DNA of 64,000 nucleotides from Massilia sp. CF038. Lineage in GTDB: Bacteria > Pseudomonadota > Gammaproteobacteria > Burkholderiales > Burkholderiaceae_D. Of the stretch, positions 1 through 26,678 are shown one piece after another; position 1 is the first letter of the stretch, and every line of letters begins with the position of its first letter. The DNA lies in NCBI RefSeq assembly GCF_900129765.1, contig NZ_FQWU01000001.1:1364001-1428000 (forward strand), read 5' to 3'. The position numbers were made by a program, and so were the translations under genes. Below the pieces are notes generated by a model that saw only the letters and a list, made by a program, of their open reading frames with translations, was not told the origin of the DNA and ran no database searches.

Positions 1-269
1 GCACTGTTCAGGCGTTCGCCCGAGGTCCCCGAACTTTGAAAGCGCATCACGTGCGGCGAATTGAGTGTGTAGCCGCGCGCCAGCACGCCGGCCGGGAAAT
101 TGCGCCGGTAGTGGGGCTTGGAAGTGGGCGGAATGCGCCGGAAATCGTCCAGGCTGCGGATCTCGTCCACGGCAATGCCGCTCGCTTCCATGTGCTTGCG
201 GAAGAAGACGGTGTGTTCAAACGCGTAGGTGATTTCCTCGCGTACTGCTTCAAATTGCGCGTTATTCAT
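1..269 (-). CDS. PaaK/CapK-like adenylate-forming enzyme, 5' part only (runs off the left edge)
   Basis: Only the first 89 codons are inside the window. The visible protein starts MNNAQFEAVR and reaches an adenylate-binding P-loop of the form QSSGTSGERL at residues 78-87, the signature of phenylacetate-CoA-ligase/CapK-like AMP-forming enzymes. The start ATG (269-267) overlaps the TGA of the upstream oxygenase gene (268-266) in an ATGA arrangement, so it is translationally coupled to the biosynthetic operon. By family, these proteins activate carboxylic acids as acyl adenylates for thioesterification or amide formation. In this context it could load a starter acid or act late in assembly; which one cannot be told from 89 residues. 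The C-terminal half, catalytic lysine and any following thioesterase lie outside the window. Confidence 0.75.
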   Translation of the reverse strand, partial: MNNAQFEAVREEITYAFEHTVFFRKHMEASGIAVDEIRSLDDFRRIPPTSKPHYRRNFPAGVLARGYTLNSPHVMRFQSSGTSGERLNS

Positions 270-1285
270 GTCATTGCTACCAGAATCGAGCGCGGGCCGG
301 TGTAAGGGCGGCGGCCGTGCGCAAATTGTTCGTTGTCGACGACGACCACGTCGCCGGCCTGCCAGGGCGTCGCGATCTCCTCGGCCTTGTAGGCGGCGCG
401 GATGTCCGCCAGCTCGTGCGCCGTGAACGGCGTGCCGTCGCCATGCATGGCGTTGCGCGGCAGCTCGTCCTCGGCGAAGTCGGCCCGCAGTTCCTGCTCC
501 ACCTCGTGCGGCAGGGAACTGACGTGGAACAGGTGGCCCTGATTGAACCAGACCCGCTCCCCGGTGGCCTGGCACAACAGGCTGGCCTGCACCACATGGC
601 GCGTACGCAATCGTTCGCCGCCCAGCCATTCAGCGGCAATGCCGTGCGCTTTGCAGTAGGCATCGACCTGGCTGCGGTCGCTGGTCTGGAAGACTTCTTG
701 CCAGCTCAGGTCCAGACCCAGTCCGAAATTGCGCACGTACATGACGCCGTCGCGCTCGAAGCGTTCCCGCACGTCCGGCGCAATGCGTGCATACACGCGC
801 GCGCTGTCGGCCAGTGGCGTTTCGCCGCCCGTGACCGAAGGCTGCACGCAGGCCAGGAACAGCAGCGCCGGCCAGGCGTCGGTGTACGACATCTCGTTGT
901 GCATCGGGATGGTCTGGTCGGCCGGGTATTCGGTGGAGGTGAACACGCGCCCGCTTACCTGGGTGCGTGGCGTGGAGCGGTTGTCGTACTCGCGCAGCGC
1001 GCCCGCATGCAGCGTGGCCAGCTCGCCCAGCCCTGCGGCATCGAGCGCGCCAAAGCCGCGCAGCAGCACCGCGCCGCGCTCCTTGAGGAGGCGGCCCAGC
1101 AAGCCATCGGCACGGCGCAGCCAGTCGCGCGCGTCCATCCCGGGAATGGTTGGCGTGCACAAGGCGATGCGTGAGCCCTCCTGCAGTGCGCTCACGCGCA
1201 CCAGCTCCCCGCTGCCAACGGCGATGGCCTGGCGCCGTCCGGCAAACGGGGTGGCGCGTGGGGCGGCGACCGAATCGGCGCTCAT
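266..1285 (-). CDS. TauD/SyrP-like Fe(II)/2-oxoglutarate-dependent oxygenase (probable aspartyl beta-hydroxylase)
   Basis: A 339-residue protein of the TauD/TfdA fold. The metal-binding triad is visible as H129-x-E131 in IPMHNEMSY and the distal H323 in FAHGRRPYTG; R332 nearby is the expected 2-oxoglutarate carboxylate anchor. An HxE rather than HxD motif is typical of the SyrP group, which hydroxylates aspartate while it is tethered to an NRPS carrier protein. The gene follows directly on an NRPS gene whose adenylation pocket reads as an Asp code; the two genes overlap by 4 nt (ATGA at 1285-1282). Inference: it beta-hydroxylates carrier-bound Asp. Its own stop overlaps the start of the CapK-like gene. 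It is cytoplasmic with no signal peptide. The family assignment is firm; the substrate rests on context. Confidence 0.88.
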   Translation of the reverse strand: MSADSVAAPRATPFAGRRQAIAVGSGELVRVSALQEGSRIALCTPTIPGMDARDWLRRADGLLGRLLKERGAVLLRGFGALDAAGLGELATLHAGALREYDNRSTPRTQVSGRVFTSTEYPADQTIPMHNEMSYTDAWPALLFLACVQPSVTGGETPLADSARVYARIAPDVRERFERDGVMYVRNFGLGLDLSWQEVFQTSDRSQVDAYCKAHGIAAEWLGGERLRTRHVVQASLLCQATGERVWFNQGHLFHVSSLPHEVEQELRADFAEDELPRNAMHGDGTPFTAHELADIRAAYKAEEIATPWQAGDVVVVDNEQFAHGRRPYTGPRSILVAMT

Positions 1286-4200
1286 GCTTGCCCCGCTTTC
1301 GCAGCCACGCGCGCGTCAATCAGCTCGGCCAGTTCCGACACGACGGAGCGCTCGAACAGGCTACGCAGCTTCAGATCAATCTGGAAGGCTTTGCGCAGGC
1401 GCGCGATCAGCTGCGTCGCCAGCAGCGAGTGTCCGCCGATATCAAAGAAATCATCCTCGGCGCCCACCCGCTTGAGCAGCAGCAGCTCGGCGATGATGCC
1501 GGCAAGCGCCGTTTCGGTCGGGGTGCGCGGTTCCACATATGGCTGGCCGCTGTCGCCGACGGCACCGGGTTCGGGCAGCATGGCGGCGTCAATTTTGCCT
1601 GCGCTGGTCAGCGGGAAGCGGTCGAGCGCGACAAAATGCGTGGGAATCATGAAGTCCGGCAGATGCTCGGACATGAAGCTGCGCAGCCAGTCTGCATTGC
1701 CGCGCGAGCCTTCCGCGTCCACCAGGTAGCCAACGATGTGGGTGGCGCTGCTTTCGCCAGCTTCAATGGCCAGACTGGCGCTCACGCGCGGATGCAGGCG
1801 CATCACCGCTTCAATCTCGCCCAGTTCCACACGGAAGCCGCGCACCTTGACCTGGCGGTCGATCCGGCCCAGGAATTCGATGCTGCCATCGGGCAGATGA
1901 CGCACCCGGTCGCCCGAGCGGTACATGCGCGCACCGGCTGTCTGACTGAACGGATCGGCGAAGAAGCGCTCGGCCTGGCCTTCGCGCTGACTCAGGTAGC
2001 CATTGGCCACGGTGGCGCCGCCAATCCACAGTTCACCGGGCACGCCGTAGGGCAGTGGGCGCTGCTGCGGGTCGAGCACATAGGCACGCGCATGGCGCAT
2101 CGGCCGGCCCAGCGGCACGGTTGACGCCAGCGCCGCCAGGGCGTTCGAACTGGTTTGGCCGCACAGCACGCCCACCGTGGTTTCGGTAGGGCCGTAGTGA
2201 TTGAAAATCTGGCACTGCCCCGTAAAGCTCTGGAACAGGTTGAACCATCCCCAGCTGAAAGGCTCGCCACCCAGCACCAGGCGCTGGCGCGGCAGGATCT
2301 GCTCCGGTGCATCGGCCACGGCAAACACGGACGCCAGGTGCGACGGCGTGATCTTCATCAGGTCGTAACTGGCCTGCGCCAGTTCCGCGGCCAGGGTCTG
2401 GGCATCGGCCGCCACGTCCGGCGCGATCACCAGCAGTTCGCCGCCACTGGTCAGGGCAGGGAACAGGGCGGTATTGCCCAGGTCCGTGGCCAGGCTGCCC
2501 AGGGCTACCGCATCAATGGCGCCACTCAGGCCCAGTCGCTCGGTGACGTTGTCCAGATAGGCGGCCAGCTGACCGTGGCCCACCACCACGCCTTTTGGCA
2601 CACCCGTGGAACCGGAGGTGAACAGCACGTACGCTGGGCTGTGGGCCAGCGTCTGCACGCGCGGCGCCGATTCGCTGCGCGTGGCGCACACGCTCAGTGC
2701 CGCGTCCAGCACGACCGCATCGACGCCGTCAGGCAGGTCGGATGCCAGCGTGACCACATGGCGCAGTGCTGCTTCGGTGAAAATCTGCGCCTGACGCTTG
2801 GCAGGCAAGGCCGGGTCGACCGGCACGTACGCGGCGCCCGCCTTGGCAATGGCCAGCATCGCGACGATGGCAAGATCCGAGCGTTCCAGATGCAGACCGA
2901 CCAGCGTGCCGGCGCCCACACCGCGCGCGCCCAATTCATGGGCCAGACGGTTGGCCGACTGGTCCAGCTCCCGGTACGTCCAGCGGCGCGTGTTGAAGCG
3001 CACAGCACAAGTCTGCGGCGCGCGTGTGGCCACCTGTTCCACCAGCTGGTGCCAGTGCACCTTGGGTGCGTCCGCACCTGGCGTCGGGTTGGTGGCGGCG
3101 ATCAGCGCCAGACCCGCGGCGTGCGGCAGCATGGCCAGCGTGCCCAGGGCCTGTGCGCTGTCGGCGGCGAACGCGGTCAGCGCAGCCTGCAGGCAGGTCA
3201 TGAGCGCTTCAGGGCCGCCATCGGCCATGCCTGCGGCCTGGTAGCGCAGTGTCAGATGCAGGGCATCGCCACATGCCACCGCCGTCAGGGCAACCTTGCC
3301 GCTGCCGCCAGCGGGCGCTGTTTGCAAAGCTGACAGCGTCAGTGCACCACCGGTCTGCGCCAAGGCCTGCTCAATGAACGCAAAGCCGGGCAACTGGCGC
3401 GCACCGGGCGGCAGCGGTTTAACCAGCGCTTCGTCGGTCTGTTCGAGCACGTCCAGCTCCAGATCGATCATGCGCAGCAGTTCGCGCAAGGTGGTAGTGT
3501 CGCCCAGCGCAGCGATGGCGGGCATCGCTTGCTCAAACGCGCCAATCGCGTGCTGCAGCTCTTCGAACGGGCGGCGTGTTACAACCGTTTCGATGGCGAC
3601 GCGTTCAGGCCGGCCGCAGGCATGCCACAGGGCGGCGTTCCATGCGGCCAGCACGACGCTGCGCAGGCTGCCTTGCTCGCGCAGGCGCGGCGTCAGCGCC
3701 GCAGGCACGGTCCAGTCCAGCGTGTGCGTGTGCAGGTCGGCGCTGTTCAATTCGAGCGGCAAATGCAGGGCAGGCAGTTCGGCCAGCTGGGTGTCGCGCT
3801 CGGCCATCAGCTCTTTCTGGCGCGCGCTTGGGGCACTTTGCTCCGACTGCCATTGTGCAAAGTCGGCATACTGCACGATGTCGTCGCGCTGCCATGGCTG
3901 GTCGGCCAGGCGCGAAGCGTAGGCCTGCTGCAGGTCGCGCAGCAGCACCGGCACCGAGACGGTGTCCACGCTCATGCGCGCGGCCGACAAGATCAGCGTG
4001 TGGCGCCCGTCGTGCGCGAACAGGGCAACCCGCAGCGGCGCGTCCGCGCCCACGTCGGTGGCGCGTTCGCGTTCGGTCTGCATCCAGGCGGCGGCTGCAT
4101 CGGCATCGCCGTTCTGCATGTCGATGGCCAGCGCCTGTGGCTCTTCGATCACCATCAGCAAGCTGCCGTTTTCGCCCAATACTGGGCGGTACACGGTGCG

Positions 4201-4374
4201 CAGGCTTTCATGGGCCTTGATCAGGTCGAACAGGGCGTGACCCAGCAGTACCCGATCGACACTGCCGTCGATGTGCGCAGCCGCCACGGTGCGCGTTGAC
4301 GCGCCCGCGCGCACCTGGACCAGCAGGCGTTCCTGCTGGCGTGAGAGCCGGAAGCCATCCCATGCTTTCGGCAT
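1282..4374 (-). CDS. NRPS module C*-A(Asp)-PCP with degenerate condensation domain
   Basis: About 1030 residues from the chosen ATG at 4374, which overlaps the preceding stop codon by one base (TAATG); an in-frame start 24 nt upstream is possible. Residues 5-420 form a condensation-like domain whose HHxxxDG motif is replaced by A-R-M-S-V-D-T (residues 132-138), losing the catalytic histidine and the glycine. An adenylation domain follows with LFTSGSTGVPKG, GPTETT, RSGDR and the C-terminal lysine in SAGKID. Pocket residues read by eye give DLTKVGHVGK, one change from the classical Asp code DLTKVGHIGK. A PCP follows with the phosphopantetheine serine in FFDIGGHS (S983). There is no epimerase or thioesterase. 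Expected role: activate Asp and present it to the oxygenase encoded next door. The condensation-like domain may be structural or a hydroxylase-docking interface rather than catalytic. Confidence 0.92.
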   Translation of the reverse strand: MPKAWDGFRLSRQQERLLVQVRAGASTRTVAAAHIDGSVDRVLLGHALFDLIKAHESLRTVYRPVLGENGSLLMVIEEPQALAIDMQNGDADAAAAWMQTERERATDVGADAPLRVALFAHDGRHTLILSAARMSVDTVSVPVLLRDLQQAYASRLADQPWQRDDIVQYADFAQWQSEQSAPSARQKELMAERDTQLAELPALHLPLELNSADLHTHTLDWTVPAALTPRLREQGSLRSVVLAAWNAALWHACGRPERVAIETVVTRRPFEELQHAIGAFEQAMPAIAALGDTTTLRELLRMIDLELDVLEQTDEALVKPLPPGARQLPGFAFIEQALAQTGGALTLSALQTAPAGGSGKVALTAVACGDALHLTLRYQAAGMADGGPEALMTCLQAALTAFAADSAQALGTLAMLPHAAGLALIAATNPTPGADAPKVHWHQLVEQVATRAPQTCAVRFNTRRWTYRELDQSANRLAHELGARGVGAGTLVGLHLERSDLAIVAMLAIAKAGAAYVPVDPALPAKRQAQIFTEAALRHVVTLASDLPDGVDAVVLDAALSVCATRSESAPRVQTLAHSPAYVLFTSGSTGVPKGVVVGHGQLAAYLDNVTERLGLSGAIDAVALGSLATDLGNTALFPALTSGGELLVIAPDVAADAQTLAAELAQASYDLMKITPSHLASVFAVADAPEQILPRQRLVLGGEPFSWGWFNLFQSFTGQCQIFNHYGPTETTVGVLCGQTSSNALAALASTVPLGRPMRHARAYVLDPQQRPLPYGVPGELWIGGATVANGYLSQREGQAERFFADPFSQTAGARMYRSGDRVRHLPDGSIEFLGRIDRQVKVRGFRVELGEIEAVMRLHPRVSASLAIEAGESSATHIVGYLVDAEGSRGNADWLRSFMSEHLPDFMIPTHFVALDRFPLTSAGKIDAAMLPEPGAVGDSGQPYVEPRTPTETALAGIIAELLLLKRVGAEDDFFDIGGHSLLATQLIARLRKAFQIDLKLRSLFERSVVSELAELIDARVAAKAGQA

Positions 4375-4964
4375 TACATCTGTTCCATATCGATCCACAG
4401 CGGACCCTCCATAAATTTATTCCAGGTTGCACATGCTTCGGGGCCGAGATACTCAGCGGCGAGTTTCCAGAAGCTGCCGTACTCCGCCGGCAGGTTCAAT
4501 TGCGAGTGGCCGACCTGCGCCGGCAAGTGGGCTAGTACGTCGCCCAGCTTCAGGCGCAGCAGGTCTTCAAATTCGTCGCGCTCCATCGCGATGGGCGCGC
4601 CGGTGCGGCGATCCTTCATTTCCGGGTTGCCCTTGGGGCGCATCAGGTTGCGCAAGCTCTTGCCCATCGACGCGTAATTCATCACCGAGAAGTTGAAGAT
4701 CATCTGTTCGATGCTTGGTCCGACGATGGCCCGCACTTCGATCCGTTTGGCCTCGGGGATAGCCTCGACGTCATCGTTGTGCAAACCCTCGGTGCCGTAC
4801 ACACCGTGAAACAGGCCCGCCAGGCACACGTCAGGCGCGGCCTGCATGTCCTGCAATATCTCGCTGACCCGGATCATGTGTTCGAGCAGCGTCTGGTCCT
4901 GGTGCGCCACTTTGTGGGTACCAAGACGGAGCAGATCGCTCCGGTACTTTTCTGTATCAAGCAT
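4374..4964 (-). CDS. HD-like DUF6817-type protein inside the NRPS operon
   Basis: A 196-residue cytoplasmic protein whose first third reads HQDQTLLEHMIRV...CLAGLFHGVYGTEG, a histidine-spaced helical pattern (H21, H29, H53) like that of HD-type domains and, from memory, of the DUF6817 family. A canonical HD doublet is absent (HG at residues 53-54), so metal-dependent phosphohydrolase activity is uncertain. Its ATG follows the stop of the upstream NRPS with no gap (TGAATG), and its stop overlaps the next NRPS start (TAATG), so it is made in step with the synthetases. That placement suggests a tailoring or accessory role on a carrier-bound intermediate. No function is established. Confidence 0.75.
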   Translation of the reverse strand: MLDTEKYRSDLLRLGTHKVAHQDQTLLEHMIRVSEILQDMQAAPDVCLAGLFHGVYGTEGLHNDDVEAIPEAKRIEVRAIVGPSIEQMIFNFSVMNYASMGKSLRNLMRPKGNPEMKDRRTGAPIAMERDEFEDLLRLKLGDVLAHLPAQVGHSQLNLPAEYGSFWKLAAEYLGPEACATWNKFMEGPLWIDMEQM

Positions 4965-7900
4965 TCAGGTTTCCTTGGTTGTGGATGGGGATCGGGTGCT
5001 TTTGCGCAGCGCGGCGACGCGGGCCAGACCGCCGCCCGCACGCTGGGCCGGCGGCGGCGCGCTGGCCTGGGTCGTCGCGCCCAGCCAGGCGCTCAGGCCG
5101 CGCACGGTGGTGTGGCGGAACAGGTCGACCAGCGGCAGCTTGCGCTGTGCCAGCGATTCAAGCGCGCGGTGGGTGGCGATCAGGCGTGCCGAGTCGCCGC
5201 CGACGTCGAAGAAGTTGTCGTCCGGGCCGATGTCCTGCCGTCCCAGCACTTCCTGCCACACCGCCAGCACGCGTTTATCCATCAGCGTGATGGGCGCGGC
5301 GCTGGTGCTGACCGCTTCGCTCTGGAATTGCGGCTCTGGCAGGCGCGCGCGGTCCACTTTGCCGCTGCTGTTCAAGGGCAGGGCGGCCAGCGGCACAATC
5401 GCGCGCGGCAGCATGTATTCAGGCAGGCGGGCGCGCAGCGCCGCCGCCAGGCGCCGCGCCAGGCCTGGCTCGTCCGGTGTGTCCGTCACCACGTAGGCAC
5501 ACAGCCAGCGCGCCTGCCGCTCGCCGCGGATGGCAACGTGAGCAGCGCGCACCCCAACCTGCGCCGCCAGCGCCGTTTCAATCTCGCTGGTCTCGATGCG
5601 GTAGCCGCGGATCTTGACCTGGTTGTCCAGACGGCCCAGGAACTCCATGCTGCCATCGGCGAAATAGCGCGCGCGGTCGCCCGTGCGGTACAGCCGTTGA
5701 CCGGGCGCGCCGAACGGATCGGCAATGAAACGCTGCGCAGTCAGAGCAGGGTCGCCATAGTAGCCATCGGCCAGTACGTCGCCACCGATGTACAGGTCAC
5801 CAGCCACGCCGACCGGTACTGGTTCCAGCCGGTGGTCCAGGATGTGGTAGCGCGCATTCTGGATCGGGCGGCCGTAGGGAATGCTGGTCTGGCCCGGCTG
5901 CACCTGTTCCACCGGGTGCCAGTTGGACCAGATTACCGCTTCGGTCGCGCCGCCCAGGGCCACCACCTCGGCATCGGCGCAGGCGCGGATGCGGTCGGGC
6001 AGGGTCACGGGCACCCAGTCCCCGGACAGGAACACCAGCCGCAAGGCCCTGGCACGCTGCCCTTCCAGATACGGGACACATTGGTCCAGCGCGATCGGTG
6101 CGGAATCCCAGAACGTGACATCCTCCTCGACCAGGATGCGCGCCAGCGCCTGCGGGTCGCGCACACTGGCCCGCCCGGCGATGCGAATCGTGCCGCCGGC
6201 CGCAAGCATGCCAAACATGTCGTACACCGACAGATCGAACGAGACCGAGGTGACAAACAGCAGGCAGTCACCCGGGCCGACCCGGTGGGTTCGGTTGACC
6301 CAGTCAATCAGGTTGTGGGCAGGACGGTGGCGCACGGCCACCGCCTTCGGCGTTCCAGTCGAACCGGAGGTGAAGATGATGTACGCCAGCCGCTCAACAT
6401 CGTCCGCCGGCAACGCACGCTGCGCATGCGGGGCCACCGGCGCGTCAGCCTGGATGGTCGTCAATACGGTATGGGCGGCCAGCGCCCGCGCGCGTTCTGC
6501 GAACACGGCGTCGGATACCAGCAAGCGCGCACCGGCCACGTCAAGCATGGCCTGGTGCCGCAGCAGCGGGCTGTCCGGATCGAGCGGCACGTAGACGCAG
6601 CCGGCCATCATGATCCCCAGCAGGCTGGCAACCAGGTACGGCTGGCGGTCGCACAGCACGGCCACCCGATTGCCTGGGCGGGCGCCGGCTGCGAGAACGC
6701 ACTGCGCCATCAGTGCGGCCTGCGCTGCCAGTTCGGCATAGCTCAGCTCACCGGCATCGGTACGAATCGCTACCGCATCCGGCTGGCGCTGCGCGCGCTC
6801 GAGGAACATGCCGTGCAGCGTATTAACGCGTGCGTGCGTGACGGCAGTCGCATTCCAGTCATCCAGGATGGTGCGCCGCTCTGTTGGCGTCAGCAGCGGC
6901 AGCATGCCGACGGTTAGCCCGGGATCGGCCAGGGCAGCGCGCGCCAGCGTCATCCAGCCTTCGCCAATGCGCCGTGCGCTGGTGCGGTCGAAGCGCTCGC
7001 CATCGTACTCGACGACCAGTCGGATGCCATCGTCCGACAGTCGGAAGAACATGCTCAGGTCAAAGCGCGATGCCGGCAGCTCGATGTCGACCGGCTCGCC
7101 GTGCGCACTGCCCAGCGTCAGCGCACCCGCTTCCTGCAGAACCGACAGCATCACGTTCGCCACAATGCCGCCATGGCCCATGCGTAGACAGGCGTTGGCA
7201 CCGACCACGCGGTCAATCGGGGCGCGACTGTGTGCCTGGGCGGCCAGCGCGCGTTCGCGGGCATGGCGCAGCAGTGTCGCAATATCGGACTGCAGATTGA
7301 CTTGACCGCGCATCAGCACCGTATTGACGAAGCAGCCAATCGCGTCGCTCAGGCCGGGGTGGGGACGGTCGGTCACGGGCACCGCCACGCAGATGTCGTC
7401 TTGCCCGCACAGGCGTGCCAGATAGGCCCAGCTCAGAGCCAGCAGCGCGTGGAATGGCGTGACGGCATGCTCTGCGCACACCGCGGTCAGGCGCGCGCGC
7501 ATGCCAGCGTCGGCACTGACGATCACCTGGCCGCCTTGTCCGCGCGGCTGCGTGGCAGGGGCGCGGTCGGCAGGCAGGGCCAATGGCTGCGGCGGATCGG
7601 AAAACTCGGCGGCCCACCAGCGCTGGTCGACTGCCACAGCGGCGCCGTGTTCCGCGCCGTGCAGCCAGCCTGCCGCATCGATGCTGCTGGTCCCGGGCGG
7701 CAGCGACTCGCCCCGGTAGGCCGCGGTGACAGCGGCCTGAATCAGTTCGGCCGAGCCATCGGCGGCAATATGATGGGTCACAATCACCAGCAGAGAAGCG
7801 CCGCCCGCAACGTTGATGGCCAGGGCGCGCAGCGGTATTTCCCGCTCGAGCTGGAACGGGCGCGCGGCGAACGCGGCGGCCTCGCGGTGTGCGTCTTCTT

Positions 7901-9938: not shown

Positions 9939-9943
9939 GTTGA

Positions 9944-12900: not shown

Positions 12901-15900
12901 CAGGATCGACCGGCACGTAGCACATGCCGGCGCGTAGAATGCCCAGCACGGCCACCACCTGTTCCCAGCCCTTGGGCAGGACCACGGCAATGCGGTCGCC
13001 AGCCTGTGCCCCTTGCGCCGTCAATGAGGCCGCCACCCAGCGCGCGCCCATGTCCAGCTCGGCATAGTGCAGGCGCACGCCGTCGGCCACCAGGGCCAGC
13101 GCGTCTGGTGTGGCCTTGGCCTGGCGCGCAAAGCCTGCATGCAGCAGCACTTCGTCGTGCACACGCCCGGTCTGGTTGGCTGCCTTGCGTGCGCTGCCGA
13201 TCTGGCGGGCCGCGCGTTGATCACGCCAGGATGTTGACGACCAGGCTTCGGGTTCGCTGGCCAGTCGTTCCAGCAAGCCAATGTACTCGGCAAACATCGC
13301 GTCCAGCATGGCAGGATCGAACAGCGCCTGGATCGAGTCCCAGTTGATCATCAGGTCCTGCCCGTCTTCATACAGCTGGCAGTCGAGCCACACTTGCGGG
13401 GTCTGTGAAATCCCTTCCACCAGACGGCCCAGCGTACCGACCACCGAACGGTTGGCGGCGGTGGGGAAAATCAGGCTGGTAAAGACATATGGCATGGCCG
13501 GCTGCGTGCCACGGCTGGCAGCAATCGCGCGCAGCAGCTTCACACCTGAAAACTGCAGGGCCGCGATATCGTCCCACAAGCGCTGCTGAACGGCCTTGGC
13601 GCGCTGCTCGAACGGCAGGTCTGCGCTGCAGTCGACTTCCAGCAGCAGCACCGAGGTGAAGTCGCCCATGACTTCGCCGATCTCTTCGTGCACTGGCAAG
13701 CGGCTGAAGGCGGGCAGATTCAGGCAGAAACGCGGGCTTTCGCTCCACGCGGCCAGTGTGTCGGCATAGGCGGCGCACAGCAGGATCGATGGCGTGGTGC
13801 CACTGTCGGCGGCGCGCTGGCGCAGGCGCTTCCAGAGGTCCGCGCCAATGCGCGCTTCACGCCGCACAAAGTGAACGTCGGTGAGCGTGTCGGGCGCGCA
13901 CAATAGGGGTAGGGAAGGCGCATTCGGGAAGTCGTCCGCGCGCGCCAGCCAGTAGTCACGCGCGCGCTGGAACGAGGGGCCGGATTCGAGTGCGATCTCG
14001 GCCAGCACGTAGTCGCGGAACGAGACCGGCAACGGCGCGGGATCGTAGTCCGGCTCCAGGTAGCGGCGCTCGAGCTCATGCCAAAAGATCGTGATGCTCC
14101 ATGCATCGGTGATCAAGAGGTCGAAGCTGATGTGCAGGCGCGCCTGATTGTCGGCCAGCTGCGAGACGCTCACCTCAAACAATGGCCAGCGCTCGCAATC
14201 CATGACCTGGTGCGATTTGGTCTGGCGCAGTGCGGCCAGGCGCTGCTCGGCTTGTTCGCTGGCGAGATTGGTGAAGTCGTTGACGGCAATGACGTAGTCG
14301 GGCACCTGGGGCAGGATGCGCTGCATGCCTTCCGGCGTAATCACGGCGCGCATCATGGGGTGGCGCGCGATGAGGCCGCGCAGGGCTTTCTGCAGCCGTG
14401 CCACGTCCAGCGCCGGGCAATCGAATTCTTCGTAGGCGTGCGCCGCCACCAGGTTGCCGCCGGTGGCGGTATTGCGGCCTACCCAGTAGGCGTGCTGGAT
14501 GTCGGTCAGCGGGAACGGCTCGAAGGCCTGCTCCCGATGGTGCACAAGTGCCGCTGCAATCGCTGCCTGGCCGGCTTGTTCGGCCGCATCGGCCGCCGCG
14601 CTGTGCTGGCCAGGGCCGGCTGCGTCAAGCGCCGCCATCAGCTGGGCGATGGTCGGATGCGACAGGATCATGCGCGGCTGCAGCGAAATGCCGACGCCGC
14701 GCGCCTGATGCGCAATCTGGATACTGAGGATGGAATCGCCACCGAGCGCGAAGAAGTTGTCGTTCATGCTCACGGCGTCGACCCCGAGTGCATCGCACCA
14801 CAGGCGTGCCAGACGCTGGTCCGTGCTCAGCGCCTGGTCCGGCGCCGTGTCAGCCTGCGTCTGGTCTTCGCCCGCGCGCATCTCGACGGCGACGCCCGGT
14901 TCGATCCAGTGACGTTTGCGCTCGAACGGATAGGCCGGCAAGGCCACGCGGCGCCCGACAGCGGGAACGCCCGCATCCAGATCCGTGCCGAGGCACCAGA
15001 GTTGCGCGCGTACGCGGGCAGCATGCAGTGATGCGTCGAGCGCGACATCTTTCGCGGCCATCAGCGGCACCTGGGCGATATCGGCGCGGCCGCTGGCGAT
15101 GTCACGCACAGCTGCCGACAACGAACGCCCTGGTCCACATTCAAGGAAGATATGGGCGCCGCTGTCGGCGATGTTGCGCACGCCGTCGGCAAAGCGCACC
15201 GTCCCGCGCAGGGAGTCGGCCCAGTATGCGGGCGACGTCGCCTGTTCAGCGCTGATCCATTCGCCCGTGAGGCAGGAGATGAACGGAATCTGCGGTACAC
15301 GCAGCTGCGCCCGGCCGGCTTCGGCCTGGAAGTCGGGACAGCAGGGCGCCATCATGGCCGAATGGAAGGCGTGCGACGTGGCCAGTGGCTGACACTCGAT
15401 GCCGCGCGCCGTCAGGCGTGCCTGTACGTCGGCGATCGCGTCATCCGGGCCTGAGAGCACGCAGACCTGCGGCCGATTGATTGCGGCCAGCGCGACTGCA
15501 TCGCCCAGTTCAGATGCAATATCGGCAAATAAGGCATTCACCGCCAGCATGCTGCCCTTGTCCATTGACTGCATCAGGCGACCGCGCGCGGCGACGAGGC
15601 GCAACGCGTCGTCCAGATCCAGAACCGAAGCCAGGCAAGCAGCCACATACTCGCCGATGCTATGGCCGATCATGGCGTCCGGCTGCAGACCCCACGCCAT
15701 CCATTGGCATGCCAGTGCGTATTCGACCACGAACAAGGCGGGCTGCGTCAGGCGGGTTTCCGCCAGCAGGGCCTGGGCGCGCGGGTAGTCTTCGGCAGTG
15801 TCTGGATACAGCAAGGCCAGCAAATCGAGGTCCAGCAACGGGCGCAGAATATCGCAGCAGTGACGTACCTGAGCCGCGTACACGCTGCCCGCCACGTAGT

Positions 15901-17539
15901 ACTCCGCGCCCATGCCAGGATACTGGGTACCCTGACCCGGGAACATGAAGACCGTGCGGGCATGGCTGATGGCGGCCCCGCGCGCCATGTCCGCCGCGCC
16001 GCCGTGCTGCAGCAGATGCGCGGCGTGCTCGGTGGACGACGCGACCACGGCCAGGCGCTGGGCGAAATCGCGCCGGCCATGGCGCAGCGTGAAGGCCACG
16101 TCGTCCAGCCGCAACTGCGGGGTGCTTGCCAGATGCTCGCCCAGGCGACGGGCGCTTTCCTTGACCGCCGTAGCGTTGAGGGCGGACATGCGCAGCATGA
16201 ATGGGCCGGCGGGCGCTTCCCGGTTGTCGTCCTGGGCCGGCGCTTCTTCCAGCACGGCGTGCACATTCGAGCCACCGATGCCGAACGAGCTGACGGCAGC
16301 GCGTCGCGGCGCCGGGCCGCGTGCCCAATCGATGGCGCGGTTGGCGGGCATGAACCCGGCGCCGCTGAAATCGATGGCCGGATGCGGTGCGTCAAAGTGC
16401 AGGGTGGGCGGGATGGTTTCGTGGTGCAAGGCCAGCGCCGCCTTGATCAGGCCAGCCACGCCGGCCGCCGCATCAAGGTGGCCGATATTCGCCTTGACCG
16501 CGCCCAGCACGCGCGGCGCAGCGCCGACCGGTGCGCCAAACGCTTGCGCCAGCGCCGCCACTTCGACCGGGTCGCCAAGGGCGGTGCCGGTCCCGTGGGC
16601 CTCGACATAGCTCACGCTGTCGGGCGCTGCATTGGCCACTTCCAGGGCGCCGCGGATGACCGCAGCCTGACCGTCGATGCTGGGCGCAGCGTAGCCAACT
16701 TTCGCGGCGCCGTCGTTGTTGGTGGCGCTGCCGCGGATGACAGCATAGATGGCGTCGCCATCGGCCTGCGCGTCGGCCAGGCGTTTTAGCACGACGATGC
16801 CGGCACCATTGCCGCGTACCGTGCCGCCGGCCTGCGCGCTGAACGGGCGGCAGTGGCCGTCGGGCGAGAGGATGCCGCCTTGCTGGTGCACATAACCCTG
16901 GTCCTGCGGGAATTCGAACGAGACGCCACCGGCCAGCGCCATGTCGCACTCGCCGGCAAACAGTGCCATGCCCGCCACGTGCACCGCCAGCAGCGAGGTG
17001 GAGCAGGCCGATTGCACCACCATGCTTGGGCCGCGCAAATCGAGCTTGTACGAGATACGGCTGGCCAGATAATCCTTCTCGTTCCCGATCAGGATTTGCA
17101 GCGGTGTCGCTTCGGCGCGCACCTTCGGATTGGTCAGCACATTGTTGAGCAGGTATGTATTCGGACCGCAACCCATGTAGACACCCACATTTTGCCCCTG
17201 CACGGCGGCGTGGCCGGCGTGTTCAAGCGCTTCGTACGCGCATTCCAGCAGCACGCGATGCTGCGGGTCGGTCAGCGCGGCTTCGCGCGGCGACATGCCG
17301 AAGAACGGCGCATCGAAACAGTCTGCCTGATCAAGCAGGAAGGCTGCCGGCACATGGTGGCTCATGCCGTCCGATGGGGGGGCGCTCACCGGCCTGTCGA
17401 GCCAGGACACCGCCTCATGCCCGCGCAGGATGTTTTCCCAAAAGGCCGCGGCATTCTGCGCCCCGGGAACGCGGCAGGAGAAGCCGATCACGGCGATATC
17501 GATGCCGCCGCTGGCGGCGTTGTCGTCGTAGGAGGTCAT
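9944..17539 (-). CDS. Hybrid PKS-NRPS, KS-AT-ACP-Cy-A(Cys)-PCP-C
   Basis: A 2531-residue megasynthase. Ketosynthase about 12-435 with C179 in QSACSTSL, H315 in EAHGTGTALGD and H354 in NIGH. Acyltransferase about 530-875 with S627 in GHSIGE and HAFH (723-726), the malonyl-CoA signature. Carrier protein S936 (ALGGDS). No KR, DH or ER, so the beta-keto group should stay. Heterocyclisation domain about 1005-1440 with PLTDIQHAYW and the DxxxxDxxS motif (D1140, D1145, S1148). Adenylation domain about 1470-1960 with pocket code DLYNMSLIWK, a Cys code; no oxidase domain is inserted. PCP S2010. Terminal condensation domain with H2200-H2201-x3-D2205-G. Expected chemistry: add one malonate unit, then condense and cyclise Cys to a thiazoline, and pass it to Ala on the next protein. 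The KS needs an upstream acyl donor not seen here. It sits 34 nt after the MFS gene. Confidence 0.96.
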   Translation of the reverse strand: MTSYDDNAASGGIDIAVIGFSCRVPGAQNAAAFWENILRGHEAVSWLDRPVSAPPSDGMSHHVPAAFLLDQADCFDAPFFGMSPREAALTDPQHRVLLECAYEALEHAGHAAVQGQNVGVYMGCGPNTYLLNNVLTNPKVRAEATPLQILIGNEKDYLASRISYKLDLRGPSMVVQSACSTSLLAVHVAGMALFAGECDMALAGGVSFEFPQDQGYVHQQGGILSPDGHCRPFSAQAGGTVRGNGAGIVVLKRLADAQADGDAIYAVIRGSATNNDGAAKVGYAAPSIDGQAAVIRGALEVANAAPDSVSYVEAHGTGTALGDPVEVAALAQAFGAPVGAAPRVLGAVKANIGHLDAAAGVAGLIKAALALHHETIPPTLHFDAPHPAIDFSGAGFMPANRAIDWARGPAPRRAAVSSFGIGGSNVHAVLEEAPAQDDNREAPAGPFMLRMSALNATAVKESARRLGEHLASTPQLRLDDVAFTLRHGRRDFAQRLAVVASSTEHAAHLLQHGGAADMARGAAISHARTVFMFPGQGTQYPGMGAEYYVAGSVYAAQVRHCCDILRPLLDLDLLALLYPDTAEDYPRAQALLAETRLTQPALFVVEYALACQWMAWGLQPDAMIGHSIGEYVAACLASVLDLDDALRLVAARGRLMQSMDKGSMLAVNALFADIASELGDAVALAAINRPQVCVLSGPDDAIADVQARLTARGIECQPLATSHAFHSAMMAPCCPDFQAEAGRAQLRVPQIPFISCLTGEWISAEQATSPAYWADSLRGTVRFADGVRNIADSGAHIFLECGPGRSLSAAVRDIASGRADIAQVPLMAAKDVALDASLHAARVRAQLWCLGTDLDAGVPAVGRRVALPAYPFERKRHWIEPGVAVEMRAGEDQTQADTAPDQALSTDQRLARLWCDALGVDAVSMNDNFFALGGDSILSIQIAHQARGVGISLQPRMILSHPTIAQLMAALDAAGPGQHSAAADAAEQAGQAAIAAALVHHREQAFEPFPLTDIQHAYWVGRNTATGGNLVAAHAYEEFDCPALDVARLQKALRGLIARHPMMRAVITPEGMQRILPQVPDYVIAVNDFTNLASEQAEQRLAALRQTKSHQVMDCERWPLFEVSVSQLADNQARLHISFDLLITDAWSITIFWHELERRYLEPDYDPAPLPVSFRDYVLAEIALESGPSFQRARDYWLARADDFPNAPSLPLLCAPDTLTDVHFVRREARIGADLWKRLRQRAADSGTTPSILLCAAYADTLAAWSESPRFCLNLPAFSRLPVHEEIGEVMGDFTSVLLLEVDCSADLPFEQRAKAVQQRLWDDIAALQFSGVKLLRAIAASRGTQPAMPYVFTSLIFPTAANRSVVGTLGRLVEGISQTPQVWLDCQLYEDGQDLMINWDSIQALFDPAMLDAMFAEYIGLLERLASEPEAWSSTSWRDQRAARQIGSARKAANQTGRVHDEVLLHAGFARQAKATPDALALVADGVRLHYAELDMGARWVAASLTAQGAQAGDRIAVVLPKGWEQVVAVLGILRAGMCYVPVDPALPRERAHTLFGIAHAAHAVTSPELTAELMWPDDCKALPLDRSALQPGAIADSWTDPAVDPDAMAYIIFTSGTTGVPKGVMTRHRAAANTVEDINNRFAVTARDRIFGISSLSFDLSVYDIFGTFAAGAALVLPPAAQAGDPACWEQLVRQEGVSVWNSVPALMDLLVSQVELTRAPVLAGLRVVMMSGDWIPLTLPARIARVAPGALRVSLGGATEASIWSISYVIDEVDPGWRSIPYGSALANQTFDVLDAHLRPRPDMVAGELYIGGIGLADGYVGNADETAHRFVPHPSGQGRLYRTGDMGRWRADGQIEFLGRQDSQVKINGFRVEIGEIEKVACDLADVASCAVQMAPDQNGARRLVAYACPVPGKDLEGDAIRSQLAAKLPAYMVPSVILVLPELPLSANGKIDRARLPAANDCRVTPARQLAATPTEQALHALWGGILGHTDFGVTDTFFETGGDSRQLTELVTRIRTSLQPGFPLRDVFLAPNVRALAVAIDDSRGKSALAALPGPGPSTSTDALVPMMAAQARLWFHHQMVPQNSTYNIVEPFHLRGELDAAALQKAFATFAQRHDALSMAFRDEGTTPCQVRNGSVPIDFQLVTMDADDTREAARHAIDFEANTPFMLDQGPHLRVRLLRFGPREHTLIVAVHHIVWDGWSTAIMVREVGALYRGGNQLALPPLQVRYADVALWEQSQTASGKFRGQLEYWWRQLATPLPVLALPTEGEISEDDEISGERVPFAIDAGTAARFRQVCNTQGASVFMGYLAAWTVLLQWWCRQDDIIVGVPAGHRAYPQLADTVGFLVNSLAIRTGFQGDPSFSAVLSQVRDTAIEAYAHQDVPFDQVVEAVNPQRRTGESAPLFRSWFVLHDVPLPDWDLPGIEAELLEANFLLSVHDIKLSLVVKDGAMEGGIDFRTGLFSSATIARLADCLVQLVTLVAAQPDLTLHALNRTLENRWDGKDAAPAKPAWNAVRSRRVAVKQG

Positions 17540-17572
17540 GGCAATGCTCTCATCAGTGTCAGGTTGTTCAAA

Positions 17573-18805
17573 TCAGCGGCGTGGCGCAGTGACCAGCGCG
17601 ACAACGGCGCCAAAGCAGCACAGCGCCACAATGGCGGTCAGGGGAACCGGCGAGCCGTCGGACAGACGCGCTTCAAGCTGGATCATGGCGGCCGTCAGGG
17701 CGCTGCTGAGGAACATCAGCATGCCCGATGCCTTGCCTTGCATGCCGGGGATCGCGCTCACGGCGCCCGACTGCACCGTCGGCCCGGTAAAACCGACCAC
17801 AAAACTGACCACGGCGGCGGGCAGCACGATCGCCGCCACGGTCCAGACGCCGCCCAGCGCCAGGCCCAGCGCCGCTGCACTGGCCACGCACGCCAGCAGC
17901 GCCGCCTTGACGACTGCGGGAAAGGCGTCGTCCGGCAGGCGTGCCGACGCGTACGCACCCAGCGCGAACATCAGCGCGCCGAGGATGTAGATCACGCCGA
18001 TCACGAAGGAAGTCAGCTTGTACTGCGTGGCCAGCAGCAGCGGCGCGGCGGCCAGAAACACGGTGTTGGCCGCCATGAACAGGGCATTGTTGGCGGTGAA
18101 GCCGAGGTAGGCGCGCGAGCGCAGCAACTGTCCGCAACCGGCAAACAGACCGTCGCCGTGCGCGCTGTTCGCGGTGTGCGCTTTGCGCGTTTCAGGCAAG
18201 TAGCGCAGCGACAGCAGCAGCGTCATGGCGGCCAGCACTGCAGTGGCGACAAAGTTGCCGCGCCAGCCGACCGCATCGCTGATCGCGCCGCCGACTGGCG
18301 TCGCCAGCATTGGTGCGATCATCATGGCCGCGACCAGGCGCGACATCACGCGCGCAATCTCCGAACCATGGTAGACGTCGACCACGATGGCCCGGCTGAC
18401 CACAATGCCGGCCGCGCCGCCAGCTGATTGCAGCACACGCGCCAGCAGCAGCACTTCCATGCTGGGGGCGAACGCGCCAAGCAGGCTGCCGAACGTCAGA
18501 AGCGACATGCCGATCAGGATGGTGGGCCGGCGCCCGAACTTGTCGGCCAGCCCGCCGTAGGTGAGCGCTGCCAGCGCAAAGCTGAGCGTGGCCAGCGAGA
18601 CCGTCAACGCCAGTACGCTCGAACTGGCATGAAAGTCCGCGCTCAAGCCGGGCAGGGCAGGCAGGAAAATCTGAAAGGCGACCGGGCCGATCGCGAACAG
18701 GGTCGTCAACAGGGCCACATGCACGGCCGGCGACGGCGCTTCGTGGTCGTAGGCGGGCGCGCTGCCCAGCGTGTTTGATTTGCTCATTTCCATGTTGGTC
18801 TGCAT
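17573..18805 (-). CDS. MFS exporter of the Bcr/CflA (DHA1) type
   Basis: A 410-residue membrane protein with about 12 hydrophobic segments and the MFS motif A between helices 2 and 3 (GGLADKFGRRPT). The early part (QIFLPALPGLSADF) is typical of Bcr/CflA-type drug efflux carriers of the inner membrane. It lies between cysE and the hybrid PKS-NRPS gene on the same strand with short gaps (67 and 33 nt), so it probably belongs to the operon and exports the product or protects the producer. In-frame ATGs at 18793 and 18787 are alternative starts. Substrate is inferred from position only. Confidence 0.88.
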   Translation of the reverse strand: MQTNMEMSKSNTLGSAPAYDHEAPSPAVHVALLTTLFAIGPVAFQIFLPALPGLSADFHASSSVLALTVSLATLSFALAALTYGGLADKFGRRPTILIGMSLLTFGSLLGAFAPSMEVLLLARVLQSAGGAAGIVVSRAIVVDVYHGSEIARVMSRLVAAMMIAPMLATPVGGAISDAVGWRGNFVATAVLAAMTLLLSLRYLPETRKAHTANSAHGDGLFAGCGQLLRSRAYLGFTANNALFMAANTVFLAAAPLLLATQYKLTSFVIGVIYILGALMFALGAYASARLPDDAFPAVVKAALLACVASAAALGLALGGVWTVAAIVLPAAVVSFVVGFTGPTVQSGAVSAIPGMQGKASGMLMFLSSALTAAMIQLEARLSDGSPVPLTAIVALCCFGAVVALVTAPRR

Positions 18806-18872
18806 CCGGCGCAGGCTAGCGCCAGACTGTCTCCTGGTGGGTTGGGGGAAGTAGGGTCGGAACAGCAGCTTG

Positions 18873-19763
18873 CTATGCGGTCAGGGCCTGATCCATGTCG
18901 AGCGCGGGATGCTGGCCGGCGAAGCCGACCACGCGTGCCGGCACGCCGACCACGGTGGAATGCGCGGGCACCGGGTGCAGCACCACGCTGCCCGCTCCCA
19001 CCTTGGCCCCAGCGCCCACCTCGATGTTGCCGAGGATTTTTACGCCGGCGCACAACAGGGCGCCCTTTCGGACCTTGGGGTGGCGGTCGCCGCGCTCCTT
19101 GCCGGTGCCGCCCAGCGTGACCTCCTGGAGGATCGAAACGTCATCCTCGACCACGCTGGTTTCGCCGATCACCACGCCATTCGCGTGATCGAGAAAAATG
19201 CCGCGGCCCAGGCGGGCAGCCGGGTGGATATCGACGTTGTAGACCATGGAGCAGCGCGCCTGCAGCAGCAAGGCGGACGCGTTCTGCTGGTGCAGCCACA
19301 AGGCGTGCCCAACACGGTGCGCCTGCAGGGCAGCAAATCCTTTGCGGAAAAAGAACACCTCAAGATACCCTTGGCAAGCAGGGTCACGTGTGTAGAAGGC
19401 GTCGAGATCGGCGGCTGCCGCGTCGCCGATCCACGGCGATGCGTACAAAACATTTTGCAACATGGCGGCCATCGACTGTCCGTCACGCATATCGCTGAAC
19501 AGTTGGTGTGAAAGCAAGGCCGACAAGGCGCCCGTGAAACCGTCCGCTGACCCAAGGATTGCGCGCAGATGGGTGTGGACGGCGCCTTCGTTTTCTTTCA
19601 ATGCATCGATTTCTTGTTCAATACGCAACCAAACCTTGCGCTGCACACTGCGCATGTCGCCCCTGGAGGGGGCCGTTTCGCTATGGTCCATCACAATCTC
19701 ATCCCGGTTTTGGCGCAGCCAAAGCAACGTCTTCGCGTTGTCAAAGCTACAAATTTGTGACAT
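18873..19763 (-). CDS. cysE: Serine O-acetyltransferase in the biosynthetic operon
   Basis: About 296 residues from ATG 19763, which has AGGA 9 nt upstream; a GTG at 19796 is a poorer alternative. The protein makes O-acetylserine from serine and acetyl-CoA, the committed step to cysteine. Family marks are clear: the helical SATase domain with GFAALQAHRVGHALW, then a left-handed beta-helix containing DIHPAARLGRGIFLDH, GVVIGET, VTLGGTGKERGDRHPK and GAGSVVL. The region before the conserved core is somewhat longer than in E. coli CysE. As the first gene of a cluster whose synthetase activates Cys (and perhaps a second Cys-like residue), it probably boosts cysteine supply during production. It may also serve housekeeping sulfur metabolism; no neighbouring sulfur genes are seen. 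Confidence 0.93.
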   Translation of the reverse strand: MSQICSFDNAKTLLWLRQNRDEIVMDHSETAPSRGDMRSVQRKVWLRIEQEIDALKENEGAVHTHLRAILGSADGFTGALSALLSHQLFSDMRDGQSMAAMLQNVLYASPWIGDAAAADLDAFYTRDPACQGYLEVFFFRKGFAALQAHRVGHALWLHQQNASALLLQARCSMVYNVDIHPAARLGRGIFLDHANGVVIGETSVVEDDVSILQEVTLGGTGKERGDRHPKVRKGALLCAGVKILGNIEVGAGAKVGAGSVVLHPVPAHSTVVGVPARVVGFAGQHPALDMDQALTA

Positions 19764-19798
19764 CTTCGCGTGTCCTGTTGCACGCTTTATAGGCACAG

Positions 19799-22819: not shown

Positions 22820-23449
22820 TTGATTTCACTATTGACGACGATGGCCATTTTCTCCCTGTCCATGTCTGCCTCGCCCGGTCCGGTTAACATGGCCATCGTC
22901 TCGGCCGGCGCTCATCATGGTGTCCGCAACACGATGCCCTTTGTGAGCGGCGCGGTGATCGGATTCACCTTACTGCTTGTTGCGGTGGGCGTGTCCTTGC
23001 ACGCGCTGTCCGATGTGTTCTCGGCGGCGATGCCCTTTCTGAGTTTGCTTGGGGGCGTTTTTATTGTGCGTACGGGCTGGAGCATCATGACAGCCGACGC
23101 CAGCCTTGGCGCAGTTCGCAATCCGGTGCCGACGTTTTTTCAGGGCTGGCTGCTGCAGTGGACCAACCCGAAAGCATGGATCGCCTGCGCATCCGGCGCG
23201 GCACTGTTTTCAGATCCGCACTCGGCCGTTCCTTTCATGCTGTTTGTGGTGATCTACTTCGCCGTGTGCTTTTTGTCGCTGGCCGCCTGGGCAGTTCTGG
23301 GGCAGCGCGTATCGTACGTGCTGACCAGCGAGCGACGCGTCAAGCTGTTCAACAGTGTGATGGGGATACTGCTGGTCGGGTGCGCGTTCTATCTGGTCGT
23401 TCCCCAGCTGGATGCGCTTTACAAGCTCTCGTCCAGCAGTTGGTGGTGA
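22820..23449 (+). CDS. LysE/RhtB-family amino-acid exporter (TTG start)
   Basis: A 209-residue inner-membrane protein with about six transmembrane segments. The family mark is in the first helix region (SMSASPGPVNMAI), with GWLLQWTNPKAW further on, typical of LysE/RhtB amino-acid or homoserine-lactone efflux carriers. The start is TTG at 22820, selected because AGGAG lies 6 nt upstream; the next ATG (22841) has no such site. It converges with and overlaps by 31 nt the LysR gene on the other strand. By family it exports an amino acid or related small metabolite; substrate unknown. Confidence 0.88.
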   Translation: MISLLTTMAIFSLSMSASPGPVNMAIVSAGAHHGVRNTMPFVSGAVIGFTLLLVAVGVSLHALSDVFSAAMPFLSLLGGVFIVRTGWSIMTADASLGAVRNPVPTFFQGWLLQWTNPKAWIACASGAALFSDPHSAVPFMLFVVIYFAVCFLSLAAWAVLGQRVSYVLTSERRVKLFNSVMGILLVGCAFYLVVPQLDALYKLSSSSWW

Positions 23450-24315: not shown

Positions 24316-24413
24316 TGCAGCACGGGCAGGGGGCAATCAGTCTGTCAAAAAAACATGATACCCCAAGGTCAACGCGGCCGGTTGCAGTCACGACATCAGC
24401 GACAGCACGCAGC

Positions 24414-25433: not shown

Positions 25434-25457
25434 GCTTTCTCCTGTGTGGAATAGACC

Positions 25458-26678
<1,221 letters not shown>

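Follow-up and report, generated by a model that had tools for sequence, protein, structure and literature searches.

A hybrid PKS-NRPS operon of Massilia sp. CF038 carrying a CapK-like/SufS-like gene pair: probable assembly order and possible sulfur chemistry

A 64,000-nucleotide stretch of the Massilia sp. CF038 genome (contig NZ_FQWU01000001.1, positions 1,364,001 to 1,428,000; hereafter the window) opens with a hybrid polyketide synthase (PKS)-non-ribosomal peptide synthetase (NRPS) gene cluster, which raises the question of what the encoded assembly line makes, in which order it works, and how its chain begins and ends. As an earlier note on this DNA had described, the hybrid genes are contiguous on the minus strand: the series from cysE to the gene of a CapK-like adenylating enzyme (window 1-19763) has all its frames intact, with domains and motifs present and no breakage. 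The cluster is read here, tentatively and with slightly more doubt than confidence, as a complete-looking operon for a secreted, sulfur-rich small peptide-polyketide, assembled in an NRPS-first order and finished by a terminal sulfur transfer. The genes and domains on which the argument turns are listed below (L numbers are locus handles).

9944..17539, minus strand: PKS-NRPS protein, 2531 aa, with ketosynthase (KS), acyltransferase (AT), acyl carrier protein (ACP), heterocyclisation (Cy), Cys-type adenylation (A), peptidyl carrier protein (PCP) and condensation (C) domains, KS-AT-ACP-Cy-A(Cys)-PCP-C (Pfam, motifs, alignment with 8 relatives)
16079..17500, minus strand: KS, SACSTS active-site Cys, not of the KSQ loading type (PF00109, PF02801, PF16197)
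15074..15952, minus strand: AT, HAFH malonyl-type motif (PF00698)
13220..14539, minus strand: Cy domain, DxxxxDxxS (motif, tree)
11675..13132, minus strand: A domain 1, code DLYNMSLIW, Cys (alignment and literature match)
10040..11329, minus strand: C domain ending the PKS protein, HHxxxD kept (motif, tree, identity)
4965..9947, minus strand: two-module NRPS, A(Ala)-PCP-C-A(Cys-like)-PCP, without an N-terminal C domain (Pfam, pocket codes)
5358..6743, minus strand: A domain 3, code DLYDFSLIW, Cys type with N278D (alignment)
5094..5318, minus strand: last PCP of the two-module NRPS (carrier tree)
4374..4964, minus strand: DUF6817 protein (PF20680, 3.8e-20)
1282..4398, minus strand: C*-A(Asp)-PCP protein, C* being a degenerate C domain (Pfam, alignment)
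266..1285, minus strand: TauD-type 2-oxoglutarate dioxygenase, HxE...H (PF02668, 4.8e-38)
1..269, continuing left to L008:2983, minus strand: CapK/PaaK-like adenylating enzyme, 428 aa, the 5' part of its gene in the window (PaaK models, structures)
L008:1781-2986, left of the window, minus strand: SufS-like pyridoxal phosphate (PLP) enzyme, 401 aa (alignment, curated models)

Building blocks and order of assembly

The comparisons draw on 44 loci, 40 from a pattern scan of a species-genome collection with the CapK-like protein, which finds only genomes matching at least one of six short peptide patterns, and four close loci (59-71% identity) from a plasmid collection. A five-gene block (DUF6817, C*-A(Asp)-PCP, TauD, CapK-like, SufS-like) is present in 16 of the 44, carried by eleven actinobacterial genome loci (Streptomyces, Kitasatospora, Actinokineospora, Spongiactinospora), Nonomuraea, Serratia sp. 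PL17, two Klebsiella pneumoniae plasmids typed conjugative, and Vibrio coralliilyticus pOCN014; because the arrangement recurs in other phyla, it is not due to chance. The PKS protein occurs in nine loci besides the window (L016, L017, L019, L021, L026 with its extension L087, and L076-L079), and among the eight relatives aligned the open frames span 2522-2645 aa in six and 2938 and 3453 aa in two. The Ala/Cys-type two-module NRPS is limited to the window, the two Klebsiella loci, Vibrio and Serratia.

Pfam searches supported the KS, AT, carrier, condensation, AMP-binding, TauD, DUF6817, MFS and SATase_N assignments, and found no ketoreductase or dehydratase domain. The earlier identification of HAFH as a malonyl-type AT motif, of DxxxxDxxS as marking a thiazoline-type Cy domain, and of codes for Cys, Ala and Asp was borne out, with HAFH kept in 8/8 relatives listed. 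The four pocket codes (DLYNMSLIW, DLFNNALTY, DLYDFSLIW and DLTKVGHVG) were obtained by alignment and by eye, the Asp code by eye, with position 299 a gap for many Asp domains and 331 misread in the automated alignment. We take DLFNNALTY to be an Ala code. DLYNMSLIWK is listed among Cys codes in the available part of a published survey, which gives DLTKVGHVGK as common to domains for Asp and for Asn, with a preference for Asp in most of these sequences (PMC12283262). The Cys code of the PKS protein is identical in the window and all nine loci (10/10). The third pocket, which the earlier note had called unclear, is of Cys type, as judged from its Klebsiella and Serratia orthologues (DLYNFSLIW), from which the codes of the window and of Vibrio are separated by the single change N278D. 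A role of A domain 3 as loader of a product of the block was considered and set aside as inconsistent, since N278D is found in the window and Vibrio and not in Klebsiella or Serratia, though Thalassomonas has the similar code DLYDMSLIW.

From the gene order a chain of malonyl, thiazoline, Ala, an unassigned residue and hydroxyaspartate had been proposed; its parts stand, whereas its order probably does not, the carrier, C-domain and tail comparisons favouring Ala-X-malonyl-thiazoline-hydroxyAsp, and the product order is thereby explicitly distinguished from the gene order. In this scheme, which the sequence comparisons make probable, the two-module NRPS would initiate with Ala followed by a Cys-type residue, its C domain making the Ala-Cys bond; the KS would take the Ala-Cys-type chain, and the AT and ACP would add one unreduced malonyl unit; Cy-A-PCP would add Cys and close the thiazoline; and the terminal C domain of the PKS protein would couple the chain to the Asp carried by the C*-A-PCP protein.

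Three comparisons point to this order. In a carrier tree, the last PCP of the two-module NRPS from the window and three gammaproteobacteria joins the last PCP of five upstream actinobacterial NRPSs (99/99*, 9 of 35 rows) and joins no other carrier class. Within the PKS protein of the window, Cy has proteobacterial affinities and the terminal C domain actinobacterial ones; in five type-1 actinobacterial clusters, a two-module NRPS lies directly before the PKS gene, and the Asp protein holds the only A domain after the PKS within the fetched stretches. The tail that follows the terminal C domain has a W, then an R seven residues on, in 9/9 PKS proteins including that of the window. HHxxxD is kept in the two C domains, while C* of the Asp protein has neither HHxxxD nor DxxxxDxxS, with HHxxxDG lost in 17/17 rows listed. 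The NRPS-first order gives every bond a live catalyst and leaves no starter missing; in the gene order, the KS has no starter and no live C domain serves the Asp.

Colinear assembly, in which the KS would prime itself (for example with acetyl from malonyl) and thiazoline, Ala, the Cys-type residue and hydroxyaspartate would follow, is improbable. The order of PKS then two-module NRPS in the window, Klebsiella, Vibrio and Serratia is colinear at face value and speaks for it, as does the placing of a C domain at the end of the PKS protein and of an A domain at the start of the following protein, so that a C|A module could be split between proteins. However, the KS has an active Cys and is not of the KSQ type, the stretches fetched for Klebsiella pC696_1, Vibrio and Serratia showed no additional KS, A or C domain (the rest of these genomes was not searched for a starter gene), no live C domain would stand between the Cys-type residue and Asp, and the carrier and C-domain trees point the other way. 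Besides the gene order itself, two features of the trees weigh against the NRPS-first order. The carrier tree has 74 columns and long branches, its ACP and Cys-PCP classes do not form single clades, and it is missing the Cys-PCP of Klebsiella, Vibrio and Serratia and the first PCP of the Vibrio and Streptomyces ICBB 8177 NRPSs (motif search or broken frame). The stand-alone C genes of type-2 actinobacterial clusters fall outside the clade of PKS-terminal C domains, which rules them out as orthologues of the latter and leaves no single clade of Asp-accepting C domains.

The PCP-bound Asp would be hydroxylated at the beta carbon by TauD, with the dead C* serving as a scaffold. The presence of a TauD-family oxygenase beside the Asp module, claimed earlier, is confirmed; its iron site (HNE and a distal H) is found in 22 rows listed, and an Asp-type code with an adjacent TauD gene in 17/17 blocks (the window and 16 loci). 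Judged from family knowledge, these roles for TauD and C* are likely, a confidence slightly lowered because the Asp code is common to Asn domains, which counts against the assignment. Beta-hydroxyaspartate modules of siderophore NRPSs consist of A(Asp) with an adjacent TauD-type dioxygenase, and the window differs from them in its separate C*-A-PCP protein, its CapK-like/SufS-like pair, and the lack of uptake genes in the cluster.

The DUF6817 protein has an HD-superfamily fold (model and fold search) in which the HD dyad is lost, H53-G54 being invariant in 11/11 aligned proteins (HD to HG). Roles as a PhnZ-like oxygenase or an alarmone hydrolase were considered; structures of both kinds are among the fold matches, the dyad is lost, and neither role is favoured. 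The DUF6817 match of L022 contains one in-frame TAG. In the Klebsiella plasmid pKPN-8c6e, ISKpn26 lies between the two-module NRPS and DUF6817 genes (L076:14323-15303), and the annotated length of DUF6817 is below that of its pC696_1 counterpart.

The CapK-like/SufS-like pair and terminal sulfur

The CapK-like gene is present as the earlier note had it, and proves to be one half of a conserved pair: a SufS-like gene directly follows it in 44/44 loci, with a TauD gene intervening in L044. The CapK-like protein reached no Pfam family; its nearest solved structure is PaaK (4.9e-24), and it gave a weak match to F390 synthetase. The best structural relatives of the SufS-like protein are SufS enzymes. 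Among the rows listed, the SSGT loop and C-terminal Lys of the CapK-like protein and the PLP Lys and persulfide Cys of the SufS-like protein are each kept in 28/28. Trees of the two proteins (43 rows each, leaving out L031 as too short and L076 as a near copy of L077) agree in their main clades. Within fetched stretches of 9 to 41 kb, a TauD, CmlA or HilA-like hydroxylase is present in 34 of the 44 loci, and three further loci have a P450. Asp appears not to be required by the pair, since A-domain codes of other kinds occur in some of its loci.

In the proposed pathway, the CapK-like enzyme would adenylate the terminal carboxylate after release, and the SufS-like enzyme would donate cysteine-derived sulfur as a persulfide, yielding a beta-hydroxy thiocarboxylic acid that could close to a beta-thiolactone; cysE would supply extra cysteine, and the major facilitator superfamily (MFS) protein and the porin would export the product. 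That the pair places sulfur on the terminal carboxyl group after release is the simplest interpretation of the sequence relationships, and is possible, if rather doubtful. Were it true, the pair would constitute simple, portable thioacid-making enzymes. Broader still, and somewhat unlikely, is the suggestion that the pair, usually beside a beta-hydroxylase, is a widespread undescribed sulfur-installing cassette of Actinomycetota, Pseudomonadota and Myxococcota, converting a C-terminal beta-hydroxy amino acid into a thiocarboxylic acid or an alpha-amino-beta-thiolactone warhead, with assembly lines that travel on conjugative plasmids. Three observations count against terminal sulfur transfer: the CapK-like protein scores 76.5 bits against the PaaK model TIGR02155 (cut-off 646.3), the SufS-like protein scores 391.5 bits against the curated SufS model TIGR01979 (cut-off 475.1), and ten of the 44 loci have none of the three hydroxylase types sought, seven of these also being without a P450.

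The same observations bear on other readings of the pair. A hydroxyl is the group adenylated by some enzymes of the PaaK superfamily, F390 synthetase among them, and the weak F390 synthetase match, the retained catalytic Cys of the SufS-like protein and the hydroxylase in 34/44 loci would suit an action at the beta carbon, with the hydroxyl of beta-hydroxy-Asp activated and replaced by sulfur to form a beta-mercapto residue; no precedent for this was found, however, PaaK-like enzymes mostly activate carboxylates, and the ten loci without the hydroxylases sought argue against it too, so that it is judged improbable. The low scores against the nearest named families would also fit a pair without sulfur transfer, in which the SufS-like enzyme catalyses a different PLP reaction (beta-elimination, decarboxylation or aldol cleavage of hydroxy-Asp) and a coenzyme A ester or amide bond is formed by the CapK-like enzyme, and so would a protein adjoining the pair in Streptomyces alanosinicus, whose best match is threo-3-hydroxyaspartate ammonia-lyase (277.2 bits, below the cut-off of 452). 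Against this reading, which is unlikely but somewhat less so than the beta-mercapto one, stand the persulfide Cys and PLP Lys kept in every row listed, the structural kinship with SufS, and the cysE gene of the proteobacterial clusters. Thiazolines and hydroxy-Asp are known metal ligands, and a hydroxyaspartate siderophore or metallophore, binding metal through thiazoline, Cys thiol and beta-hydroxy-Asp, would account for the Asp module and TauD; photoxenobactins, according to the available sections of their description, bind metals (PMC9396620). Such a product is nonetheless the least probable of the readings, and was set aside, as neither the operon nor the annotated clusters of Klebsiella and Vibrio contained a TonB receptor or siderophore uptake gene (no search was made of the rest of the genome).

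No description of the cluster was found in searches of open-licence full-text papers aimed at the cluster, its chemistry and its carriers and at interface domains and pocket codes, in agreement with the earlier note, which knew of no described product with the order it proposed, though a description may exist in a subscription journal; for the two-gene cassette, present in 44 loci of three phyla, the chemistry was likewise not found in the open-licence papers searched. Parts of the proposed pathway have precedents, here taken from the available portions of the papers cited. Photoxenobactins have thiocarboxylic-acid ends proposed to arise from C-S cleavage of a Cys residue, and the photoxenobactin/piscibactin (pxb) and yersiniabactin systems resemble the window in combining Cy and Cys modules with a PKS module and forming thiazolines, but are salicylate-derived, and those portions mention neither an Asp module nor TauD, CapK-like or SufS-like genes (PMC9396620). 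In the thiotetronates (thiolactomycin, Tu 3010), a cysteine desulfurase supplies the sulfur, and a PKS-NRPS with Cy-A(Cys)-PCP is present as in the window; by contrast, the PKS is iterative, the desulfurase and a thiouridylase lie at a separate locus, and no Asp block is named in the text available (PMC5518548). A beta-thiolactone was observed in largimycin mutants and called the first in natural products by its authors; the largimycin/leinamycin family installs sulfur by PLP chemistry, as proposed here, but through thiocysteine-lyase domains inside the PKS of a different assembly line (PMC13200230). By analogy, these systems would be precedents for parts of the pathway, and not for the CapK-like/SufS-like pair.

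Several pair loci are of interest in their own right. Streptomyces alanosinicus (L049:8938-16318; L052 and L055 are related) has a small cluster, in which TauD, the pair and an EamA transporter accompany the one A domain seen, and which is possibly the simplest system for the chemistry of the pair. A remote pair locus, L043 of Actinomadura sp. 7K507, also encodes an LnmK-type protein and a HilA-like dioxygenase close to the pair, and may point to a leinamycin-like relative. In Pseudoalteromonas, Microbulbifer and Marinibactrum (L028, L029, L030, and L054 with L098 and L099), the pair is joined to a CmlA-type hydroxylase; L028 also contains a penicillin-amidase-like protein, an ABC exporter and a sulfotransferase, and a large NRPS is found further along in L098 and L099. 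The pair is shortened in Streptomyces sp. or43 (L031), with a 240-residue CapK-like and a 52-residue SufS-like match.

Mosaic origin and distribution

The window's five block proteins are 57-75% identical to those of Streptomyces A1136 and 41-59% to those of Klebsiella, and in the CapK-like and SufS-like trees the window stands beside 12 actinobacterial rows (100/99* and 100/98*). The PKS protein is divided in its affinities. Its Cy domain has a mean identity of 44% to five actinobacteria and 56% to three gammaproteobacteria, whereas its terminal C domain has 60% and 46%, respectively; in a tree of 55 C-type domains, Cy groups with gammaproteobacteria (100/95*) and the terminal C domain with actinobacteria (99/94*). 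The outgroup of this tree was formed by the other C subtypes; 16 of 71 C-type domains were excluded because they duplicate others in overlapping loci, and L023_14250 was entered as Cy by default though motif-less. The tree of A domain 1 leans to gammaproteobacteria (91/89, not starred), and the KS (54 and 58%) and AT (43 and 40%) identities are undecided between actinobacteria and gammaproteobacteria. The break lies between PCP and C, near residue 2050, and a gammaproteobacterial-type NRPS gene sits between the terminal C domain and the actinobacterial-like Asp block; on these sequence affinities, the terminal C domain goes with the Asp block across the intervening NRPS gene. The protein is an example of natural recombination inside a PKS-NRPS, with a C domain travelling with the Asp block.

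Gene order from the PKS to the SufS-like gene in Klebsiella pneumoniae pC696_1 and Vibrio coralliilyticus pOCN014 is equal to that of the window, with block genes 39-59% identical; these clusters differ in having cysE after the SufS-like gene, and their product is unnamed in the records. The Serratia cluster also contains cysE. Nonomuraea gerenzanensis has the same kind of genes, again with the product unnamed in the record; its cluster and the Streptomyces type-1 clusters are without the Ala/Cys NRPS and have a different two-module NRPS upstream of the PKS gene. Among the Streptomyces relatives are S. cirratus JCM 4738, S. chattanoogensis NRRL ISP-5002 and Kitasatospora aureofaciens ATCC 10762, and their products may have been isolated already. 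Close copies of the Klebsiella cluster were found in 2 of 72,556 plasmid records, both typed conjugative, and in none of 20,395 E. coli records. Among 399 genomes of the window's order, the best match outside its own genome (E 2.1e-295) had E 9.0e-30 and only 28% identity, from which the cluster appears sporadic in the order.

In Vibrio pOCN014, a cysteine--tRNA ligase gene adjoins the cluster (L078:24148-25518), scoring 298.7 bits against PF01406, compared with 420-480 for the chromosomal enzymes of gammaproteobacteria listed; it may serve in self-resistance or in coping with a drain on cysteine. Cysteinyl-tRNA synthetase (CysRS) as a self-resistance target was rejected: none of the 43 remaining stretches contains a match to the cysS gene beside the Vibrio cluster, and in the genome of the window a single full-length CysRS match is accompanied by two weak partial ones. 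Actinobacterial genomes have second strong matches of about 270-300 bits, presumably MshC-type proteins.

Operon extent and neighbouring genes

The remaining genes of the cluster are as follows.

18873..19763, minus strand: cysE, serine O-acetyltransferase (SATase_N 2e-20; TIGR01172 223.1 bits, cut-off 210.65), with its ATG at 19763 and an alternative GTG start extending to 19796
17573..18805, minus strand: MFS exporter (MFS_1 9.6e-42)
L008:998-1732, minus strand, 2.3-3.0 kb left of position 1: type II thioesterase, 244 aa (profile search)
L007:15988-17004, minus strand, left of the window: porin (profile search)
L007:15158-15991, plus strand, left of the window: phosphopantetheinyl transferase (PPTase), convergent with the porin gene (profile search)

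From the PKS gene to the SufS-like gene, adjacent genes abut or overlap by 4 to 25 bases (the ATG of the two-module NRPS at 9947 giving a 4-base overlap with the PKS gene stop), the thioesterase and porin genes overlap by 7 bases, and the other intergenic gaps are 33 to 67 bases. Because of these overlaps, abutments and short gaps, the genes from cysE to the porin gene are likely to form one minus-strand operon, longer than the window. The leftward extension that the earlier note had advised, in search of release and starter genes, brought into view the CapK-like, SufS-like, type II thioesterase and porin genes and the convergent PPTase gene, so that the left end is now seen; its remark that no thioesterase is in view holds for the window, because the window ends before the gene, but not for the cluster.

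The G+C content is 66.6% in window 1-19796 and 60.3% in window 20001-64000. The right flank (window 23419-26636) contains genes for a LysR regulator, an NDP-sugar epimerase-type protein and UDP-galactopyranose mutase, polysaccharide-type genes of lower G+C. Elsewhere in the same genome, an extra condensation domain lies inside a 1325-residue open frame (G000:C9:135989-137239).

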